From: Halorubellus sp. JP-L1
GTDB taxonomy: Archaea; Halobacteriota; Halobacteria; Halobacteriales; Natrialbaceae
NCBI RefSeq assembly: GCF_011440375.1
Contig: NZ_JAAOIR010000001.1
Coordinates: forward strand, 124,001-188,000
Reading direction: 5' to 3'
Length of the DNA stretch: 64,000 nt
A program made the translations under genes and the position numbers. Of this stretch, positions 2,972-49,777 are shown piece after piece. Positions within the stretch are counted from its first letter, which is position 1. Each line of letters opens with the position of its first letter. Below the pieces are notes generated by a model. It searched no databases, was not told the DNA's origin, and was given only the letters and a program-made list of their open reading frames with translations.

Positions 2972-3310
2972 GCACCAGTGTGGTCGGCGACCGAGCCTCT
3001 AAGCGTGGTTACGGAATGGCGAGCGAGACCGTCGGTTCGACCTCGATACCCTCCGCATAGCGGCAGAGCGGAGCGAATCTGTCCTCCGTTGCCGTTGGAT
3101 AAACACGTCCGATGCCAGATGCAACGGTCGCGCGGCGGGACGAAACTCCGGCGAGCGACCCTTGGCGAGTCCGGAACCGACCGCGCTCCCCGACGGGACA
3201 GGGAGACTTTTCCTCGCCCACCTCGAACGTGGCGGGTATGGATGGGGACGACGGCGACGGCCGAAGCAAGCCCTACGTCAAGGACTACATGACCCAGGAC
3301 GTGGTGACGG
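2214..3310. repeat. Tandem duplication, copy B
   Basis: This is the partner of copy A. It holds the 5' half of the second beta-helix gene, the divergent intergenic region and the 5' end of the intact CBS-ParB gene. Similarity ends at about 3310, inside the first CBS domain; the matching breakpoint in copy A is near 1245. Confidence 0.85.
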
Positions 3311-4041
3311 TGTCGCCCGACGAGACCGTCGGCGAGGTCGCGGCGATGATCGCGAAGAGCGAGGAACATAGCGGGTTCCCGGTGTGCGAGCGCCGTCGCG
3401 TCGAGGGGTTCGTGTCCGCGAGAGATCTCCTGCTGGCGGACGACGACGAGCCGATCTTCAAGGTGATGACGACGGATCTCATCGTCGCGCACCCGGAGAT
3501 GAAGGTGACGGACGCCGCCAGGGTCATCCTCAGGTCGGGCATCCAGAAGCTCCCCGTGGTGGACGACGCGGGGAACCTCGTGGGCATCATCTCGAACGCG
3601 GACGTCATCCGCAGTCAGATAGAGCGGGCGACGCCGGAGAAGGTCGGGAAGCTCCGGCGGACCCTGGAGAACATCCACGGCGTGAGTCTCGACCAGGAGC
3701 GTCACAAGGTCGACCTCGACGGGTTGACGCCGACGCAAACGAAGGTGTACGCGGACGAACTCGAGGGGCGGCGCTACGAGCTAGAGCGCGGGCTGGCGGA
3801 GCCGCTCGTCGTCATCGACAACGGCGGCGACATGCTGCTCGCGGACGGCCACCATCGCGTGATGGCCGCGGACAGACTCGGGATGGAGTCCATGGACGCG
3901 TACGTGATCGTCATCGCGGACCCGATCGAACTCGGGATGGCGAAGACCGCCGAACGGGAGGGGCTGGAATCGCTCGCGGACGTGAACGTCGTCGACTACG
4001 CGCGGCACCCGCTCGTCGAGACGACCAAGCGCCTGCAGTAG
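3238..4041 (+). CDS. CBS-pair protein with ParB/Srx-like domain
   Basis: The product is 267 residues. Two CBS motifs occupy residues ~10-125 (YMTQDVVTVSPDETVGE; VMTTDLIVAHPEMKVTDAA, GIQKLPVVDD, GIISNADVI). They are followed by a ParB/sulfiredoxin-like module (~130-265) with the signature LLADGHHRVMAADRLG. CBS pairs typically bind adenosyl ligands, and the ParB-like fold can bind nucleotides or DNA; this combination is a known haloarchaeal architecture without a proven function. I chose ATG 3238 because a TATA-like ACTTTTCC lies about 29 bases upstream and the same promoter and start region is recognisable in the duplicated remnant. An in-frame ATG at 3112 is less likely. The gene is probably expressed alone and leaderless. 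Confidence 0.85.
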   Translation: MDGDDGDGRSKPYVKDYMTQDVVTVSPDETVGEVAAMIAKSEEHSGFPVCERRRVEGFVSARDLLLADDDEPIFKVMTTDLIVAHPEMKVTDAARVILRSGIQKLPVVDDAGNLVGIISNADVIRSQIERATPEKVGKLRRTLENIHGVSLDQERHKVDLDGLTPTQTKVYADELEGRRYELERGLAEPLVVIDNGGDMLLADGHHRVMAADRLGMESMDAYVIVIADPIELGMAKTAEREGLESLADVNVVDYARHPLVETTKRLQ

Positions 4042-41437: not shown

Positions 41438-43282
41438 TCAGTACGAGCGTTCCTTCGGCTCGTAGGTCTTGTTCTGACCTTCGAGGATCACCGGCCGGAA
41501 GAACACCTCGGGCTCGCCGTCGTGCCACGCGATGAGCGTGTGCTTGAGCCACTCGTCGTCCTTGCGTTCCTGGTGCTCCTTGCGCCAGTGCGCGCCGCGG
41601 AACTCGTCGCGGACGAGCGCGCCCATCGCGATCGTCTCCGCGATGTCGATGAGGTTCCGCGTCTCGATCGTGTGCTGGAGGTCCGTGTTGAACGTCCGAC
41701 TCGGGTCCTCGACGTAGACGTCCTCGTACGCCTCGCGGATGTCGCGGATGTCGCGGAGCGCCTGCCGAACGCCCTCCTCCTCGCGGAAGACGTTCACGTT
41801 CTGGGTCATCGTCTTCTGGAGGCGCGCGCGGATCTGGGAGTGCTTCACGCCGTCCTCGCGGGACAGCATCTCCTCGACGCGCTCGCGCTGCGCTTCGACC
41901 TCGCGCTCGACGACCGCGGTCGCGTCCTGCGTGACCGCACCCCCGTCGGTCGCCGTCGACGCCTCGCCACCGGCACCAATGCCGGCTTCGCCGGGCTGGA
42001 CGGGCATCTCGGTGTCGTCGTACTCGATGTTCCCGCGCTCGCCCGTCTCGATCTTCGCGTCCTCGATGTCGCCGCCAGCGGCGTGCACGCCGGCGCGAGC
42101 ACCGAACACGATGAGTTCCGGGAGCGCGTTCCCGCCCAGGCGGTTCGCGCCGTGCACGCTCACGCACGCCGTCTCCCCGGCCGCGTACAGGCCGTCGATG
42201 CACGTGTGGCCGTTCTCGTCGGTCTCCACGCCACCCATCTGGTAGTGCTGGCCGGGCTTGACCGGCATCGGCTCCTTCAATCCGTCGACGCCCTCGAAGT
42301 CCTCCGCGAGGTGCAGGATGTTCTCCAGGCGGTCGAGGATGCGTTCCTCGCCGAGGTGGCGCATGTCGAGCATCACGTACTCGTCCTCGAACCCGCGGCC
42401 CTCGTTCACCTCCGTCAGCTCCGCGCGCGAGACGACGTCGCGAGAGGCGAGTTCGCCCTCGTTGTTCGCGTACCCGTGCTCGAACATGAAGCGCTCGCCG
42501 TCCGCGTTGTACAGGATACCGCCTTCACCGCGAACGCCCTCCGAGATGAGGACGCCCGTGCTCGGGAGCGTCGTCGGGTGGAACTGCACGAACTCCATGT
42601 CCTCCAGGGGGACGCCAGCGCGGTACGCGATCGCGTACCCGTCGCCGGTGTTCGCGACCGCGTTCGTCGTGTGGTCGAACGCCTGCCCGGGCCCACCGGT
42701 CGCGAGGATGACGCCGTCGTTCGCCTTGAACCCCTGAATATCGCCGGTCTTGACGTCAATTCCGACGACACCGTGACACGACCGCTCGCTCGGGTCGTCC
42801 TCGTCCGTCACCGCGACGTCCTGCACGAACCACTCGTCGTACACCTCGATCCCTCGCTTCACGACCTGCTCGTACATCGTGTGCAGGAGGTGATGGCCGG
42901 TCTCCGCGCCCGCGTACGTCGTCCGCGGGAACGACAACCCGCCGAACGGCCGCTGGCTGACGGTGCCGTCGTCCTCGCGCGAGAACGGCATCCCCCAGTG
43001 CTCGATGTTGATGACCTCCTCCGGGGAGTCCTGCGCGAGCGTCTCCACCGCCGGCGCGTCCGCGAGGTAGTCCGACCCCTTCATGGTGTCGTACGCGTGC
43101 AGCTCCCAGTCGTCGCCCTCGCGGAGCGCCGCGTTGATGCCACCCTCCGCCGCGCCCGTGTGCGAGCGAACCGGATGGAGTTTCGTCACGATAGCCACGT
43201 CCGCACCTTCCTCGTGGGCCGCGATCGCCGCGCGGAGCCCCGCGCCGCCACCGCCGACCACGATAACGTCGTGTTCGTACAT
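41438..43282 (-). CDS. sdhA: Succinate dehydrogenase flavoprotein subunit
   Basis: The product is 614 residues. FAD-binding motif VVGGGGAGLRAAIAA; SHTGAAEGGINAAL contains the His for covalent FAD; the active-site region is FVQFHPTTL and the substrate/FAD motif GANRLGGNALPELIVFG. With SdhB it oxidises succinate to fumarate on the inner face of the membrane. An acidic insertion (~420-440) is a halophilic feature. It is the last gene of the operon, six bases after sdhB. Confidence 0.97.
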   Translation of the reverse strand: MYEHDVIVVGGGGAGLRAAIAAHEEGADVAIVTKLHPVRSHTGAAEGGINAALREGDDWELHAYDTMKGSDYLADAPAVETLAQDSPEEVINIEHWGMPFSREDDGTVSQRPFGGLSFPRTTYAGAETGHHLLHTMYEQVVKRGIEVYDEWFVQDVAVTDEDDPSERSCHGVVGIDVKTGDIQGFKANDGVILATGGPGQAFDHTTNAVANTGDGYAIAYRAGVPLEDMEFVQFHPTTLPSTGVLISEGVRGEGGILYNADGERFMFEHGYANNEGELASRDVVSRAELTEVNEGRGFEDEYVMLDMRHLGEERILDRLENILHLAEDFEGVDGLKEPMPVKPGQHYQMGGVETDENGHTCIDGLYAAGETACVSVHGANRLGGNALPELIVFGARAGVHAAGGDIEDAKIETGERGNIEYDDTEMPVQPGEAGIGAGGEASTATDGGAVTQDATAVVEREVEAQRERVEEMLSREDGVKHSQIRARLQKTMTQNVNVFREEEGVRQALRDIRDIREAYEDVYVEDPSRTFNTDLQHTIETRNLIDIAETIAMGALVRDEFRGAHWRKEHQERKDDEWLKHTLIAWHDGEPEVFFRPVILEGQNKTYEPKERSY

Positions 43283-43288
43283 GATGTG

Positions 43289-44179
43289 TTACCAGAACTT
43301 GAGGTTGCTCTTGACCGCTTCGCGCTTCAGTTCCTGGATGTGCTCGGTCAGCGGGATGTCCTTCGGGCAGACCTCCGTGCACGAGAACTGAGTCTGGCAG
43401 CGCCAGACGCCGTGCTCCTGCTCGAGGATGCGGAGTCGATGCTCCTCGAGTTCCGCCTCGTCCTCGCGCTCGTCCATGTAGAACCGGTACGCCTTGTTGA
43501 TCGCCGCCGGCCCCAGGTACTCGTTGTCGCCCGCAGCGATGTTGCACGAGGACATGCACGCACCACACCAGATGCAGCGCGTACTCATCTTTATCTTCTC
43601 GCGGTTCTCCCGCGTCTGCTTCTGTTCCTCGCCGTCGGGCGCGTTCTCGCCCTGGAAGTACGGCTCCACCGAGTGCATCTGGTCGTAGAAGTGCTGCATG
43701 TCCACGACCAGGTCCTTCACGACGTCCTGGTGCGGGAGCGGCTCCACGCGAACCGGCCACTCCAGGTCGCTCATTTGGGTCTTACAGCACAGGCGCTGCT
43801 GGCCGTTGACGAACATCGCGTCCGACCCACACACCGCCTGCCGGCACGAGTGCCGGAACGTCAGCGACGGGTCGTAGTGGTCGCGCGCGTACATGAGCGC
43901 GTCCAGCACCGTCATCCCCTTCTCGAAGGGCACGTGGAACTCGTCGAACCGCGGCTCCTGCTTGCCCTCCACCTCGGGGTCGTACCGGAACACCTTCATC
44001 CGGACGGCCTCCTCGGCCGCCGCGATCTCCTCCTGGGCCTTCTTCTGGGCGTCCCGGTACGCGCGGTCCGTCGCCTTCTTCGCCATCCGCTGCTCCTGGG
44101 GTGATTCGACCGACGCGTCCGTCTCCGCGTCGGCGCTCGACTCCGCTTCGCCCTCCTGCTCCGGTACTTGCGTGCTCAT
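43289..44179 (-). CDS. sdhB: Succinate dehydrogenase iron-sulfur subunit
   Basis: The product is 296 residues. A charged N-terminal extension of ~60 residues precedes the ferredoxin-like domain with the [2Fe-2S] ligands SCRQAVCGSD and LCCK. The second domain has CIWCGACMSSCN for the [4Fe-4S] cluster and CQTQFSCTEVCPKDI, which supplies [3Fe-4S] ligands. It carries electrons from SdhA to quinone. ATG 44179 is chosen since the longer upstream frame overlaps sdhD. Confidence 0.96.
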   Translation of the reverse strand: MSTQVPEQEGEAESSADAETDASVESPQEQRMAKKATDRAYRDAQKKAQEEIAAAEEAVRMKVFRYDPEVEGKQEPRFDEFHVPFEKGMTVLDALMYARDHYDPSLTFRHSCRQAVCGSDAMFVNGQQRLCCKTQMSDLEWPVRVEPLPHQDVVKDLVVDMQHFYDQMHSVEPYFQGENAPDGEEQKQTRENREKIKMSTRCIWCGACMSSCNIAAGDNEYLGPAAINKAYRFYMDEREDEAELEEHRLRILEQEHGVWRCQTQFSCTEVCPKDIPLTEHIQELKREAVKSNLKFW

Positions 44180-44181
44180 TG

Positions 44182-44559
44182 TTATAGGAATCCGTTCATG
44201 ACGAGTGCGACGCGCGTGCCCTGCACCACGAGGAGCAGGGCGGCGATGCCGAGGACGCCCTGCGCCACTCGCTTCTGCGTGCCCTCGATGCCCTGGTTCA
44301 GCATCGCGTTGTAGATGCCGTTGACGCCGTGGAACGTCGCGGCGACGAGGAACAGCCACATCGTCGCGAAGTACGCGAGGTCCCCCATCCGCGCGGACGT
44401 CCCGGCGAACGTGACCTCGTACGCGTGGTTGTAGAAGTGCAGCAGGAAGAAGTGAAACGCGAGGACGACGATGAGGAACGCCGCCGTGATTCGCTGGAAG
44501 AGCCAGCCCCAGCCACCGCGATCGAAGGACGTCGGCGCACCGGCGGTGTCGGCCGCCAT
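44182..44559 (-). CDS. sdhD: Succinate dehydrogenase membrane anchor subunit D
   Basis: The product is 125 residues with three transmembrane helices (ITAAFLIVVLAFHFFLLHFY, MWLFLVAATFHGVNGIYNAM, GVLGIAALLLVVQG). The His residues in helices I and II are candidate haem b/quinone-site residues. Its ATG shares one base with the sdhC stop codon, and it ends two bases before sdhB. Confidence 0.9.
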   Translation of the reverse strand: MAADTAGAPTSFDRGGWGWLFQRITAAFLIVVLAFHFFLLHFYNHAYEVTFAGTSARMGDLAYFATMWLFLVAATFHGVNGIYNAMLNQGIEGTQKRVAQGVLGIAALLLVVQGTRVALVMNGFL

Positions 44560-44960
44560 CAGGCGCCACCTCCGAGCCCGGCGAGGAACGTCGGGACGCT
44601 CGCGACGACGATCGCGCCCGTCAGGACGAGCGACGCGTAGAAACTCCGGTCCTGCGACCCGAGACCGATGCCGAGGTCGACGAGCAGCAGTCGCGTCCCG
44701 TTCAGGATGTGGAACACGGCCGTCGCCAGCAGCCCGATCTCCAGGATGCGGACGACGAAGATGCTTTCGAGGCCCTGTAGCGTTTGCGTGTACGTTTCTG
44801 CGCCCGTCGTCGCCGTGCTGAGAACTGCGATGTGCGTGAAGAGGTACCCGACGAGGATCCACCCGGTGAACTTGTGGAAGATCCACGCCCACATGCCGGC
44901 CTGGAACTCCTTCCAGCGGCCGAAGTCCTCGATGAGACCGCGGTTGTAAGACTGGCTCAT
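44559..44960 (-). CDS. sdhC: Succinate dehydrogenase cytochrome b subunit C
   Basis: The product is 133 residues with three helices. [20 protein letters not shown] and [19 protein letters not shown] carry the family's conserved Ser/Thr-Gly and His haem-ligand positions. It is the first gene of the sdhCDBA operon; the promoter is indicated by a TATACC element around 44988 (about 28 bases upstream of ATG 44960). Confidence 0.93.
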
Positions 44961-45081: not shown

Positions 45082-46122
45082 TCACGGGGATTCGCCGCCG
45101 GTCGACGCCCTCGGCGTCTGCTCGCGTTCGAGCGCGCGCCGCGTCGGTTCGTCGAGTTCGACGAGGTGACAGAGCGGGTTCCCCGGGTAGACGACCGGGT
45201 TCTCGAGGACGCCGACGAGCACGCCCGTGAACGGTGCCTCAACCTCGGTGTTGTCGAGCTTGAACGGGCTGGTGATGGTGCAGATGCGGTCGCCCTCGTG
45301 GACGAGCGACCCGGACTCGAAGTGCATGTCGACCATGCCGCCGGCGTCCGCGCGCAGCCACGTCTTCTCGTCGTTGTCCTCGACGACGGTCCGCCACCCC
45401 GGCCAGCTCACCGCCTCGGTCGCGAGCAGGCCGTACTCGGCGAGGACGCTCAGAACGCCCCCGAGCGCGCGGTCGATGAGCTGGCGCTGGAACCGGTGGG
45501 CTTCGCCCATCTCGATGGTGATGGTGGGGATACCGGCGTCGGTCGCCTCGCGCCGGAGCGTGCCGTCGGGGCCGTCGCTGCTGATGATGACGTTCGACGC
45601 GAACGCGTTCGCGAGCCGCGACACCTCGTCGTTCGCCATGTCCGCCCGGACGTGCAGCATGTTCGTTCGGCCGCGCGTCGACGTGTGGAGGTCGATGCCG
45701 AGGTCGCACGGTTCGACGAAGTTCGTGAAGATGCGGTGAGCCATCCGCTTCGCGCTCGTCGAGTCCTCGTGCCCGGGGAACGACCGGTTCAGGTCGCGGT
45801 CGTAGATCGGTAGGTACCGCTGCTGGGCGAGGAACCCGGGGACGTTCAGGACCGGCATGCAGACGAGCGTCCCCTGGAGGTCAGCGAGATCCCACTCGTG
45901 GGCGACCTCGCGCACGACCTCGATCCCGTTCAGTTCGTCGCCGTGCGCGGCCGCCGAGAGGAAGACGGTCGGCCCGGGGCGTTCGCCGTTGATGATGGTG
46001 ACGGGGATGCGGACGGGATCGCCGAGGTAGGTTTCGCTGATCCCGTAGCGGATGTTCGCGGTCTCGCCCGGGTCCACCCGCCCGCCGTTGTAGGTGAAGG
46101 CGTCCGCGTCGTCGTCGCTCAT
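45082..46122 (-). CDS. AstE/AspA-type zinc deacylase
   Basis: The product is 346 residues of the succinylglutamate desuccinylase/aspartoacylase family. The Zn ligands lie in SAAAHGDELNGIEV (His-x-x-Glu) and GIDLHTSTRG (His); the catalytic-side motif is TITIEMGEAHRF and YDRDLNRSFPG is the family's substrate-binding Arg region. The C-terminal ~80 residues form a beta-rich domain (SGSLVHEGDRICTI). It hydrolyses an N-acyl amino acid or related amide; the substrate is unknown. ATG 46122 is preferred over an upstream in-frame start. Confidence 0.9.
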   Translation of the reverse strand: MSDDDADAFTYNGGRVDPGETANIRYGISETYLGDPVRIPVTIINGERPGPTVFLSAAAHGDELNGIEVVREVAHEWDLADLQGTLVCMPVLNVPGFLAQQRYLPIYDRDLNRSFPGHEDSTSAKRMAHRIFTNFVEPCDLGIDLHTSTRGRTNMLHVRADMANDEVSRLANAFASNVIISSDGPDGTLRREATDAGIPTITIEMGEAHRFQRQLIDRALGGVLSVLAEYGLLATEAVSWPGWRTVVEDNDEKTWLRADAGGMVDMHFESGSLVHEGDRICTITSPFKLDNTEVEAPFTGVLVGVLENPVVYPGNPLCHLVELDEPTRRALEREQTPRASTGGESP

Positions 46123-46168
46123 ACACGCCCCTCTGGCGCCGGCACGTAAATGCCTGCATGTCCCCGCC

Positions 46169-46212
46169 GAGCCCACTGCAAGTCACCGGCGAGCCCACTG
46201 CAGGTCCACGTC
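46169..46212. repeat. 22-bp tandem duplication in divergent promoter region
   Basis: GAGCCCACTGCA occurs at 46169 and 46191 with related flanks (AGTCACC, GGTCCAC), and a third degenerate copy follows near 46213 (GAGCCCGCCGCG). It lies between the divergent deacylase and acetyltransferase genes. Function unknown. Confidence 0.55.
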
Positions 46213-46285
46213 GAGCCCGCCGCGGCTTCGAGTCGAGCGCGCGTCCGGGGCCGAGCGTTATTACGGTTGGTGTCGTACGTGTGGT

Positions 46286-47041
46286 ATGGAAGTACGTGAC
46301 GCCACCGCGGACGACTTCGAGGCGATGCGGCGGACGGCTGCAGCGTCGATGCACGAGTCCTACGATTCGTTCCTGGACCCGCAGACGATCGACGCGGCGC
46401 TCGAGGAATGGTACGGCGCGGACACGCTGGCCGCGCAGGTGTCCGCGGCGGACGCGCTCCTGTACGTCGCCGAGGCCGACGACGACGGCGTCGTCGGGTT
46501 CGTGCAGGCGGAGGTCGTGACGAAAGACCCGGTCGAGGGCCGCATCCTCTGGCTGCACGTGCATCCCGAAGCGCGGGGAGATGGCGTCGGGTCGCGGCTG
46601 TTCGTTCGCGCGCAGGAGGAACTCCTCCAGCGGGGCGCCGAGCGCATCACGGGCGTCGTCCTCGAGGGGAACGAGCTCGGGACGGCGTTCTACGAGGGCC
46701 ACGGGTTCGCGCGCGCCGGCGACCGGACGGTCGACGTCGGCGACGAGTCCTACGCGGAGGCGCTGTACGTGCAGGCGGAAGCCGGAGAGGTCGAGTGGGA
46801 GAGCCTCGACGAGTACGACGTCGACGGCCAGTCGGTGTTCGTGAGCTACAGCGAGGCCGACCGCGGGTCGAAGGGGCCGCTCTACCAGGCGTACAGCGAC
46901 CCCGACCGCGACCGCAAGTACGGCTACTTCTGCGGCGCGTGTCACTCCTTCGACGTGTCGATGAGCTCGATGGGGGTCGTCGAGTGCAACGACTGCGAGA
47001 ACCGCCGGAAGGCGACCCGCTGGGACGCCTCCTACCTCTGA
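46286..47041 (+). CDS. GNAT acetyltransferase with C-terminal zinc ribbon
   Basis: The product is 251 residues. The GNAT domain (1-~150) has the acetyl-CoA motif WLHVHPEARGDGVGSRLF and the late strand/helix FYEGHGFARAGDR. The C-terminal ~80 residues include YFCGACHSFDVSMSSMG and then ECNDCEN, giving two CxxC pairs of a zinc ribbon. The acceptor substrate is unknown; the ribbon may recruit a nucleic acid or protein. The leaderless promoter GTTATTACGG is about 27 bases before ATG 46286. Confidence 0.88.
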   Translation: MEVRDATADDFEAMRRTAAASMHESYDSFLDPQTIDAALEEWYGADTLAAQVSAADALLYVAEADDDGVVGFVQAEVVTKDPVEGRILWLHVHPEARGDGVGSRLFVRAQEELLQRGAERITGVVLEGNELGTAFYEGHGFARAGDRTVDVGDESYAEALYVQAEAGEVEWESLDEYDVDGQSVFVSYSEADRGSKGPLYQAYSDPDRDRKYGYFCGACHSFDVSMSSMGVVECNDCENRRKATRWDASYL

Positions 47042-47220: not shown

Positions 47221-48576
47221 ATGAACGGTTCGTCCGGTGTACGCGTCGGTGTTCTCAGTTTCCACAACAGCAAGGAGTCCAAGGCGATCTGTAACGCGAT
47301 CGAGGACCTCGGGCACGAACCCGAGTGGCTGCGCGAGGAGAACACGAGCGTCCGCGTGCGCGGCAACGACGTCGAGTTGACGCCGAACGTGGACGTCGTG
47401 GCGAACCGGATGCTGCTCTCGAACACCGAGCAGCCCTGCGAGGACCTCGGGGTCGCGAACACGATCGCGAGCCTGCGGCCGATGCTGAACGCGCCGAACG
47501 CGACGCTCCGGGCGTCCCACAAGTTCGCGACCGCGGGCGCGCTCGCCGAAGCCGACATCCAGGTGCCGGACGCGCTGCTGGCGCTCGATGCGACGACGCT
47601 GAACGCCGCGCGGGAGGAGTTCGGCGACGAAGCCGTGTACAAGACCGCGATCGGGACCCACGGCGGCGGGACGTGGAAGGTCGGGCGAGACGAGCACGTG
47701 AACCCGAAGGTCGGGAACCGGTACGCGTTCCTCCAGAGCCTCATCGAGCGCGACGACCAGGACCACCGCGACATCCGCGTGTACGTCGTCGGTGACGAGG
47801 TCGTCGGCGCGATGTACCGGTACGCGCCCGACAACGACTGGCGGACGAACGTCGCGCTCGGCGGGAGCGTCGAGGACGCGACCGGCGACCTCCCCGACGA
47901 GGTCGTCGACATCGCGACGGAGGCGTCGGACGTCGTCGGCCTGGACTACGCGGGCGTCGACATCGTCGAGGGGAACGAGGGCTGGTTCGTCCTCGAGGTC
48001 AACCCGACGGCGGGATTCAAGGGACTGTACGAGGCGACCGGGCGGAGTCCGGCGCCGTACATCGCGAAGCTCGCGATCGAACGGGCCGGTGGGAGCGTCG
48101 ACGCGGAGCGCGTTCGCGAACTCTCGGCGACGCTCGACGACTCCGTGCCGTCGTGCAAGCCGCGCGCGCCGACGTCGGAGTCCGACGAACCGGTCGTCGT
48201 CGGGTACACGGAGGAGGTCGTCGTCCACGGCACGCAGGGCTCGAAGACGGTGCTCGCGAAGTCCGACACGGGCGCGACCCGCACCAGTATCGACACGAGC
48301 CTCGCCGCGGAGATCGGCGCCGGCCCGATCAAGTCCGTGATGAAGGTGAAGTCCGGGAGCCTGAAGAGCGGGAAGTCGCGACCGGTCGTCGACCTCGTCG
48401 TCGGCGTCGGCGGCCGCCAGCATACGGTCACGGCGAGCGTCGAGGACCGCAGTCACATGGACTACCCGCTCCTCCTCGGCCGGGACATCCTCGGGAACTA
48501 CCAGGTGGACGTCTCCAAGCGCGTGGACGCGACCGAGGAAGCGGACGACGAGGAGGAAGAAGAGAGCCTGGAATAG
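47221..48576 (+). CDS. RimK-like ATP-grasp ligase fused to aspartic-protease-like domain
   Basis: The product is 451 residues. The N-terminal ~300 residues are a RimK/glutathione-synthetase ATP-grasp ligase (ASHKFATAGALAEA, KTAIGTHGGGTWKV, FVLEVNPTAGFKGLYEATG). After a linker the C-terminal part (~325-440) resembles the RimB/Zn_protease (PF05618) retropepsin-like fold, with D349-T-G-A in KSDTGATRTSID and a second LLLGRDIL motif. Known RimK enzymes add glutamates to peptides or make amide bonds; the RimB-type domain could trim such a product. The real substrate is unknown. The final residues are acidic. Confidence 0.88.
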   Translation: MNGSSGVRVGVLSFHNSKESKAICNAIEDLGHEPEWLREENTSVRVRGNDVELTPNVDVVANRMLLSNTEQPCEDLGVANTIASLRPMLNAPNATLRASHKFATAGALAEADIQVPDALLALDATTLNAAREEFGDEAVYKTAIGTHGGGTWKVGRDEHVNPKVGNRYAFLQSLIERDDQDHRDIRVYVVGDEVVGAMYRYAPDNDWRTNVALGGSVEDATGDLPDEVVDIATEASDVVGLDYAGVDIVEGNEGWFVLEVNPTAGFKGLYEATGRSPAPYIAKLAIERAGGSVDAERVRELSATLDDSVPSCKPRAPTSESDEPVVVGYTEEVVVHGTQGSKTVLAKSDTGATRTSIDTSLAAEIGAGPIKSVMKVKSGSLKSGKSRPVVDLVVGVGGRQHTVTASVEDRSHMDYPLLLGRDILGNYQVDVSKRVDATEEADDEEEEESLE

Positions 48577-48579
48577 CTC

Positions 48580-48924
48580 CTAGATGGCTTGAAGCGTCCA
48601 GAGGGCGACCATCCCGGCGGCGATCGTCGCGAGCACGTTCTCGGTCTTCCAGGCGACGAGCGCCGCGATCGCCGCGGCCGGGAGCTTCGGCGAGTACGCC
48701 ACCGTCGGGAGGACGAGCGCCCCGCCGGACGCGTCGACGGCGACGACGGCGGGGACGACGAGTGCGGCGAGGACTGCCGCGGGCACGAACTCGAGCGCGC
48801 GCTCGATGCGTGGCGGGATCTCGTCGACGCGACCGACGACGACGACGAACGACGCCCTGAGGGCGTACGTGCCGACGCCGCCGGCGAGCACGACCAGCCA
48901 GAGGACGCCCGCGTCGTCGATCAT
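48580..48924 (-). CDS. azlD: AzlD-type branched-chain amino acid exporter subunit
   Basis: The product is 114 residues with four hydrophobic segments (LWLVVLAGGVGTYALRASFV, LEFVPAAVLAALVVPAVV, LPAAAIAALVAW, and a C-terminal helix), matching the small AzlD subunit. It partners AzlC, whose gene overlaps its ATG by four bases upstream. Together they export branched-chain amino acids or analogues in bacteria. Confidence 0.9.
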   Translation of the reverse strand: MIDDAGVLWLVVLAGGVGTYALRASFVVVVGRVDEIPPRIERALEFVPAAVLAALVVPAVVAVDASGGALVLPTVAYSPKLPAAAIAALVAWKTENVLATIAAGMVALWTLQAI

Positions 48925-49643
48925 GCCTCCTCCTCCGCCGAGCCGTCGGTGGCGTCGGTCGCGAGTGCGTCGTCGAGGATCGTCGCGACGACGACGCCGG
49001 CGAGCGCCGCGGCGACGAGCGACACGTCGTAGGGGAGGTTCGCCCCGAGGACGGTGCCGACGCCGCCGACGAGCGCCGCGAGCGCACTCGCCCTGTCGGT
49101 GACGTTCGGGACGAGGAGCGCGAGGAACGTGAGGGGGATGGCGAACTCGAGGGAGAGCCCCGGTGGGACGCGCGCGCCGACGAGGATGCCCGTGATCGTG
49201 GACAGCTGCCACGCGATCCAGAGCGTGAAGGCGGCGCCGACGTAGTACCAGAGCCGCCGGTCGGGACTGGTGTCTTGCTCGCGGTACTCGGTGAGTGCGA
49301 CGGCGTACGCCTGATCGGTCATCAGGTACGCACAGATCGCGCGGGAACGCGTGGTGAACGCGCGGAAGTGCGGCGCGATGCTCGCCGCGTACATCGGGTA
49401 CCGGAGGTTCACGACGAGGATCGTCGCGAGGACGACGACCGCGGGCGAGCCCTTCGCGATGAGGTCGACCGCGGCGAGCTGAGCCGCGCCCGCGAACACG
49501 ATCGCGGACATCGCCGCGACGAGCGTCGGGTCGAGCCCGCGGTCGATCGCCGTCACACCGTACACGAGGCCGAACGGGACGACGCCGAGGAGGAACGGAC
49601 TGATCGCGCGTGCGCCGTCGATGGCGTCCGCCCGATCACTCAC
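48921..49643 (-). CDS. azlC: AzlC-type branched-chain amino acid exporter subunit
   Basis: The product is 240 residues. Family features are GVVPFGLVYGVTAI, AMSAIVFAGAAQLAAVDLI and NLRYPMYAASIAPHFR. It has about seven to eight helices and an acidic C-terminus. I chose the GTG at 49643 because a Shine-Dalgarno-like GGGGGGTG precedes it; an in-frame GTG at 49673 would add ten residues. It is the first gene of the azlCD operon. Confidence 0.9.
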   Translation of the reverse strand: MSDRADAIDGARAISPFLLGVVPFGLVYGVTAIDRGLDPTLVAAMSAIVFAGAAQLAAVDLIAKGSPAVVVLATILVVNLRYPMYAASIAPHFRAFTTRSRAICAYLMTDQAYAVALTEYREQDTSPDRRLWYYVGAAFTLWIAWQLSTITGILVGARVPPGLSLEFAIPLTFLALLVPNVTDRASALAALVGGVGTVLGANLPYDVSLVAAALAGVVVATILDDALATDATDGSAEEEA

Positions 49644-49777
49644 GGTGGCACCCCCCGGTTTGTCGCGTAACACGCAGGCATGAACGGGGCCGACGAAGGC
49701 ACGCCCAATCGCTCTTTGGGTCGGGGCAGACGCTGACCCGGGGCGAAAGCGGCCACGCGCGCCGACCGCCGAACCCG

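Follow-up and report, generated by a model that had tools for sequence, protein, structure and literature searches.

The 64,000-nucleotide stretch of Halorubellus sp. JP-L1 that we analysed (contig NZ_JAAOIR010000001.1, positions 124,001 to 188,000; hereafter the window) contains an open reading frame that runs from an ATG start to a TAG stop and encodes 451 amino acids, in which a RimK-family ATP-grasp ligase precedes a RimB-like retropepsin domain and an acidic tail (Table 1). On comparative grounds, this frame is a real gene and chance is ruled out: 96 distinct fusion proteins, comprising that of the window and 95 others at 48-92% identity (the closest named relative, from Halorubellus salinus, at 92%), share the DTGA region. 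The ligase half matches the RimK family (PF08443) over residues 98-273 (E = 4e-24; 85.7 bits against a cut-off of 21), and the C-terminal domain, which has a short flap and the residues LLGRD at 418-422, matches the Zn_protease, or RimB, family (PF05618) over residues 372-435 (39.5 bits; cut-off, 27), a match that recurs in all 51 members of set A1 at E ≤ 0.001. Among NCBIfam models, the protein scores above the cut-off of rimK_fam (TIGR00768; 153 bits vs. 143.4), below those of the equivalogs for S6-type RimK (NF007764; 62.9 vs. 331) and LysX/ArgX (TIGR02144; 115.2 vs. 275.6), and far below that of the MptN equivalog; another gene of the same genome (L004) meets the LysX model at 297.8. The retropepsin domain also falls below the RimB equivalog (NF052261; 17.9 vs. 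200 bits).

Table 1. Features at the fusion locus, in coordinates of the window.
Feature	Position	Strand	Basis or remark
RimK-family ATP-grasp ligase with C-terminal RimB-like retropepsin (fusion)	47221..48576	+	ORF, Pfam, NCBIfam, predicted structure
Ligase part, pre-ATP-grasp and ATP-grasp, residues 1 to ~300	47221..48120	+	Pfam, conserved residues, structure match
RimB-like retropepsin domain, residues ~326-435	48196..48525	+	Pfam, structure matches
DTGA motif, residues 349-352	48265..48276	+	Codon of predicted catalytic Asp 349 at 48265-48267
Acidic tail ending in Glu, residues 433-451, predicted acceptor	48517..48573	+	Tail statistics, low pLDDT
Aspartoacylase/succinylglutamate desuccinylase-like hydrolase, AstE/AspA family (PF24827)	45082..46176	-	Pfam, co-occurrence; divergent partner
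GNAT acetyltransferase fused to DUF5816	46094-47041	+	Between fusion and aspartoacylase gene
AzlD/AzlC-like pair	48580-49673	-	Just downstream of fusion, convergent
Succinate dehydrogenase-like block	41438-44960	-	Named by eye; includes sdhB-like gene

Structural modelling, which the original prediction had put forward as the check on its reading, returned a retropepsin fold for the C-terminal part. AlphaFold2 models, for which 51 of the 96 fusion sequences served as input, reached a pLDDT of 86.8 for the whole chain and a mean of 82.6 for the C-terminal domain alone, with low confidence at the flap tip (378-384) and in the tail (439-451; pLDDT <50). The top solved matches of the C-terminal model in Foldseek were RloA2 (9g59), Lpg0085 (2pma) and RloA (9g58), at E-values of 1.8e-7 to 1.5e-6, followed by the foamy-virus, EIAV, HIV and Ddi1 proteases; TM-scores were moderate (0.53-0.58 for the first six matches), and VIA Z values for the bacterial structures 9g59, 2pma and 9g58 were 12.9, 12.8 and 12.2 over 99-106 residues. 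Judged from its model, the C-terminal domain is thus a retropepsin fold. The whole-chain model was best matched by LysX/ArgX and RimK, with LysX/ArgX matching as well as RimK. Family models and predicted structures therefore agree that a RimK-like ATP-grasp ligase is joined to a retropepsin-like domain bearing a DTGA motif, as originally predicted.

Both active sites are intact. In the ligase half, K141, D184, R186, R200, R208 and N210 occur in 96/96 fusion proteins, and D247, E259 and N261, which by E. coli RimK we take to be metal ligands, in 95/96 (one protein has a gap); an ATP-grasp fold, as modelled, and conserved metal and ATP residues are thus both present. In the retropepsin half, D349, G351 and R410 are kept in all 96 proteins, K347 in 95 (with Arg in the remaining one) and R387 in 95, and the segment L419-G-R-D422 is retained in 95-96 of the 96, its G420, R421 and D422 without exception. 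In RloA, K46, R92, R114 and R137 touch poly-glutamate in a model and D48 is catalytic, the strongest mutant effects are those of R114A and R137A, and reporters with six or fewer Glu are not cut (PMC12239564). Mapped by spacing, K46, D48, R114 and R137 of RloA correspond to K347, D349, R387 and R410 of the fusion: Lys and Asp lie 2 residues and the two Arg 23 residues apart in both, and an alignment with RloA2 agrees. RloA R92, which is Ala in Pseudomonas aeruginosa RimB, has no mapped counterpart, and the interval from Asp to the first key Arg spans 38 residues in the fusion vs. 66 in RloA, or about 28 fewer. That one enzyme both adds and removes residues, for example poly-glutamate, had been part of the original prediction and is still the most likely reading, considering that the poly-Glu residues of RloA are kept and that the bacterial RimB/RimK pair does just this (PMC11957791); that glutamate is the residue added we infer, and the idea itself is already in print for a bacterial hybrid. 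For a small peptide product, the alternative that was also raised, we found nothing specifically in support.

The ligase half of the fusion forms a clade of its own (100/100) on a long stem, and the E. coli, methanogen and RimBK ligases share another clade (98/90), such that the tree would place the fusion ligase outside the S6-type RimK clade; its position beside LysX has weak support (73/58). Because the ligase lies outside the S6 clade, scores far below the S6, LysX and MptN models and matches LysX/ArgX structures equally well, the amino acid it adds and the linkage it forms could differ from those of RimK. RimK is known to put poly-alpha-glutamate on the bacterial ribosomal protein bS6 as part of a RimB-RimK pair, its poly-alpha-glutamate synthesis is stimulated by RimB, and RimB needs six Glu, or five starting at the last encoded Glu (PMC11957791). 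Dynamic ribosome modification has been described as potentially archaeal too (PMC7343187). A search of the Halorubellus genome, the one genome of its kind searched, found no bS6 (PF01250); 10 of 14 control genomes match, and all 10 are bacterial.

Within the class, the RimB family model PF05618 matches 222 of 242 genomes and 67 of 73 genera; as a count of fusions, 222 is a maximum for this sample, since at least one genome (G114) has only a stand-alone domain. All 114 haloarchaeal PF05618 loci that we inspected, among them the window and its two copies, encode the fusion and yield the 96 distinct proteins, the loci being a non-random set in which some groups are mostly best-scoring matches and others, including second copies, were chosen for genus spread. 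Among the matches listed, two have short frames: One (L237, in G063) matches the fusion over residues 7-436 and adjoins an aspartoacylase gene, and the other (L236, in G114, at 3098-3418) is a RimB-like domain alone, 47% identical to residues 330-436 in a frame of 258 amino acids, around which no ligase or aspartoacylase match lies within 6 kb and which was left out of the 96. The domain is also held by the genome of Haloferax volcanii. The fusion covers at least 80% of its length in no phage record and in 11 plasmid records (H1-H11), all haloarchaeal by name and 49-66% identical; a search of genome contigs with the fusion returned only two relatives. The methanogen genomes belong to one family of the phylum, which we take to be Methanosarcinaceae because the control Methanosarcina acetivorans matches; in them RimB has a gene to itself, and a rimK-like frame comes after it in 14/14 loci (L037-L050). 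PF05618 matches in methanogen proteins of about 180 amino acids (170-200; profile positions 25-138) were rejected as RimB since DTG is absent from the three that were read (L139, L140, L152). These three carry HELEH or HEIEH, and the two scanned (L139 and L152) are weakly peptide-deformylase-like; by these motifs, PF05618 seems to mix two unlike groups.

The tails of the fusion proteins vary in sequence and in length (1-26 residues past residue 432), and their ends are constrained: Glu is terminal in 93/96, and Glu-Glu in 75/96, with Glu at position -2 in 76/95 and at position -3 in 28/95. When residues were shuffled within tails (n = 95, one tail of fewer than four residues being left out), 30.4±4.5 Glu and 8.6±2.8 Glu-Glu termini were expected vs. 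93 and 75 observed, and when each 70% identity group was represented once (19 groups, 18 usable), 17 Glu and 15 Glu-Glu termini compare with expectations of 6.1 and 1.8. As controls, 42 of 352 conserved neighbour genes at 71 loci end in Glu and 2 in Glu-Glu (counts that are not independent, because these genes fall into few families and the fusion proteins are related), and 47 of 369 ORFs from 464 kb of the same genome, window included, end in Glu and 9 in Glu-Glu (the ORF calls come from a crude rule based on codon-position GC, and some are surely spurious). The fusion is the only one of these 369 to have four Glu in a row within its last 12 residues. Three fusion proteins do not end in Glu (L014, L112 and L105), of which L105 is a shortened copy whose counterpart in the same genome, L106, ends in Glu-Glu. 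A Shine-Dalgarno origin of the Glu-Glu terminus, with GAGGAG resembling the ribosome site of a downstream gene, is unlikely as a general cause: GGAGG is found in the last 15 bases of only 12/96 genes, among 80 loci, 32 have a convergent gene as their nearest conserved downstream neighbour, 24 have one on the same strand and 24 have none that was found, and the last Glu codon is GAG in 85/93, like that of other Glu-ended ORFs (41/47).

The known protein acceptors of this ligase family, bS6 (PMC11957791) and LysW/ArgW, end in Glu, and arginine synthesis in the haloarchaeon Natrinema gari depends on the last residue of ArgW, a Glu, and stops with E54A; by analogy, the fusion's own tail is the best candidate for an acceptor. 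Given such Glu-ended acceptors, and given that encoded Glu runs do not exceed six residues (a length reached in 5/96 tails), about the minimum for RimB, our reading is that the tail could serve as an acceptor, which RimB would cut more readily after extension. The C-termini of the seven methanogen RimK proteins looked at read GKG and that of the Aureibacter RimBK hybrid TND, and the Glu-ended tail hence seems to be a haloarchaeal trait, and a self-acceptor would not be general.

At the haloarchaeal loci, the fusion is accompanied by a gene for an aspartoacylase-like hydrolase, which lies within the fetched flank at identities of at least 67% in 65 of 80 loci, and in 64 of them is divergent upstream (neighbour counts come from searches with named proteins). 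A conserved operon with the GNAT-DUF5816 or AzlC gene was considered and rejected, as the former lies near the fusion in just 20/80 loci and the latter in 4/80. Gene order is generally conserved (an sdhB-like gene is near the fusion in 41/80 loci), making adjacency alone a weak argument, and co-occurrence was therefore tested, with counts that ignore kinship. The hydrolase occurs at 62-93% identity somewhere in each of 18 fusion-positive genomes, which were picked, not drawn (14 whose tested locus, 15 loci in all, lacked it, and 4 others). Among the 20 genomes lacking PF05618, hydrolase relatives do not exceed 37% identity in 17, and the other three (G110, G168 and G184) hold the hydrolase at 74-77% with a fusion fragment beside it (L230, L231 and L232, respectively; 42-70 residues at 45-59% identity), as if, to go by these remnants, the fusion had been lost first. 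A further genome among the 20 (G180) has a fusion fragment without a close hydrolase, and the remaining fusion matches, at about 27-41% identity, are no closer than other RimK-family genes.

The same combination of genes recurs outside the haloarchaea. All 7 methanogen loci examined have rimB, rimK and a third gene side by side; the third gene is of the AstE/AspA family in 3/3 scanned (L138, L143, L154), and in each of the seven loci it is 32-36% identical to the hydrolase encoded in the window. On bacterial plasmids, the hydrolase is beside rimB and rimK in 4/4 annotated split loci that were opened (Vibrio, in which the order differs, Salinivibrio, Acaryochloris and Phaeobacter). Methanogens and some bacteria thus have a rimB-rimK-aspA triad, of which the aspartoacylase-like gene is the third member. 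No hydrolase was found within 3-5 kb of the two bacterial hybrids opened (Aureibacter and Thioclava), and a Pseudoalteromonas RimK-family gene has neither rimB nor an aspartoacylase gene beside it; a Halomonas record carries no annotation. In a tree in which long branches meet, the rim hydrolases of haloarchaea, methanogens and bacteria cluster in a single group (96/89) apart from 11 of 15 other haloarchaeal relatives, the other four (52-62% identity) falling inside its haloarchaeal part.

From the two predicted folds, the intact sites, the constrained terminus, the co-occurring hydrolase and the absence of bS6, we infer a self-contained writer and eraser of glutamylation, a reading that is quite possible if somewhat short of probable. 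The RimK-type half would use ATP to join amino acids, most likely Glu, onto a C-terminal Glu acceptor, and the RimB-type half, as a homodimer with one catalytic Asp per chain, would cut poly-glutamate runs back off. The best candidate acceptor would be the protein's own tail, kept ending in Glu or Glu-Glu, and the enzyme would set its own tail length. Short tails, such as those with five residues past residue 432, may not reach the ligase site of the same chain, which speaks against a self-acceptor; some tails being very short, self-modification might occur in trans within an oligomer. The fusion may also act on further Glu-ended proteins, and the aspartoacylase/AstE-type hydrolase of the neighbouring gene would process what results, possibly by taking off the final residue. 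Further points against this reading are that the published bacterial RimBK did not ligate the bS6 tested (PMC11957791), that RloA spares reporters with six or fewer Glu, and that the RimB-like domain of G114 stands alone. Carried further, this would amount to a haloarchaeal rim system with writer, eraser and acceptor in one polypeptide, in which the protein's own Glu-Glu is polyglutamylated, the retropepsin resets it and the hydrolase is a second, exo-acting eraser, giving a self-contained timer or switch in most of the class; as a whole, this extension strikes us as rather doubtful.

The same writer-eraser chemistry could also be directed at another protein, ribosomal or not, with the fusion's own tail as a regulatory pseudo-substrate in the RimB cleft or the ligase site. 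Bacterial RimB and RimK do act on bS6 (PMC11957791), constraint on a terminal Glu suits binding as well as ligation, and encoded runs of six Glu or fewer stay near the RimB limit; however, less than proteome-wide searching brought up no acceptor candidate, the genome lacks bS6, and 9/369 of its sampled ORFs have Glu-Glu ends; we consider an external acceptor unlikely while allowing it some weight. Distinctly less likely is that the product is free poly-alpha-glutamate, or short acyl-glutamate peptides serving as solute or storage, with RimB stimulating synthesis or trimming and the hydrolase recycling N-acyl or terminal Glu. This would accord with the stimulation by RimB of poly-alpha-glutamate synthesis by RimK (PMC11957791) and with a partner whose family is named for N-acyl amino acid hydrolysis, but leaves the constraint on terminal Glu unexplained.

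The remaining readings assign a different role to one half or the other. If the retropepsin fold were a dimerisation or regulatory module that does not cut, the missed RimB equivalog cut-off and the Asp-to-Arg interval some 28 residues shorter than that of RloA would be accounted for, but D349, G351, R410, G420, R421 and D422 (96/96) and K347 and R387 (95/96) would be needless, and we regard this as very improbable. Scarcely probable at all is a tail acting as an amino-group carrier in cis, similar to LysW/ArgW, on which an amino acid is attached to the gamma-carboxyl of the terminal Glu, processed and released by the hydrolase: A poly-Glu protease has no evident part in such a scheme, and the fusion is far below a LysX model that another gene of the genome meets, even though LysX/ArgX are among the best structural matches and haloarchaeal ArgW works via a C-terminal Glu.

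The nearest published systems are the bacterial RimB-RimK pair and the RimBK hybrid, and in the haloarchaeal version the domain order is reversed and the bS6 target is missing. The RimBK hybrid (Desulfotalea psychrophila DP2392 and others; Little et al. 2025, PMC11957791) similarly joins a RimB-type retropepsin and a RimK-family ligase in one chain, and its protease part was shown to be active in the bacterial protein; its RimB is N-terminal, whereas that of the haloarchaeal fusion is C-terminal and short. In our tree, the ligases of two bacterial RimBK hybrids are S6-type, in contrast to the separate haloarchaeal clade, and unlike the hybrid, the fusion has an archaeal host without bS6 and a terminus constrained to Glu. 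Because of its separate ligase clade, its failure against the RimB equivalog and the absence of bS6, the fusion does not qualify as a RimBK hybrid of the kind that has been published, although it probably works like one. RimA-RimB-RimK of Pseudomonas likewise combine a RimK-family ligase and a RimB-family retropepsin as poly-Glu writer and eraser, but are separate genes acting on bS6, which the genome with the fusion lacks. The rimB-rimK-aspA loci of methanogens and bacteria have the same three parts side by side as the haloarchaeal locus, but with separate rimB and rimK genes and an S6-type RimK. RloA retropepsins (9g58, 9g59) resemble the fusion in fold, catalytic Asp motif and basic poly-Glu-contacting residues, but are described as secreted and stand-alone, and have a longer Asp-Arg stretch. 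LysX/ArgX with LysW/ArgW share the ligase fold and a C-terminal Glu as acceptor, but use a separate carrier protein and have no protease domain, and the fusion is under the LysX cut-off.

Among the open-licence papers listed in our searches, we found none on an archaeal RimK-RimB fusion, a self-acceptor tail, autoglutamylation or a RimK-aspartoacylase link, nor, by title, any prokaryote paper on RimK with aspartoacylase, and the main text of PMC11957791 contains no word beginning with "archae". That the system is widespread in haloarchaea and occurs in a genome lacking bS6 suggests that this branch of the RimK family has another target, for which the constrained Glu terminus names one candidate, and the aspartoacylase-like hydrolase emerges as a third component in haloarchaea, methanogens and some bacteria. 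Within the haloarchaea, more divergent fusions at 48-55% identity (L006, L008, L009, L012, L014, L087, L100, L129, L135) are often second copies, and some divergent or second-copy fusions (L062, L065, L087, L135, L158) have an aspartoacylase neighbour of their own.
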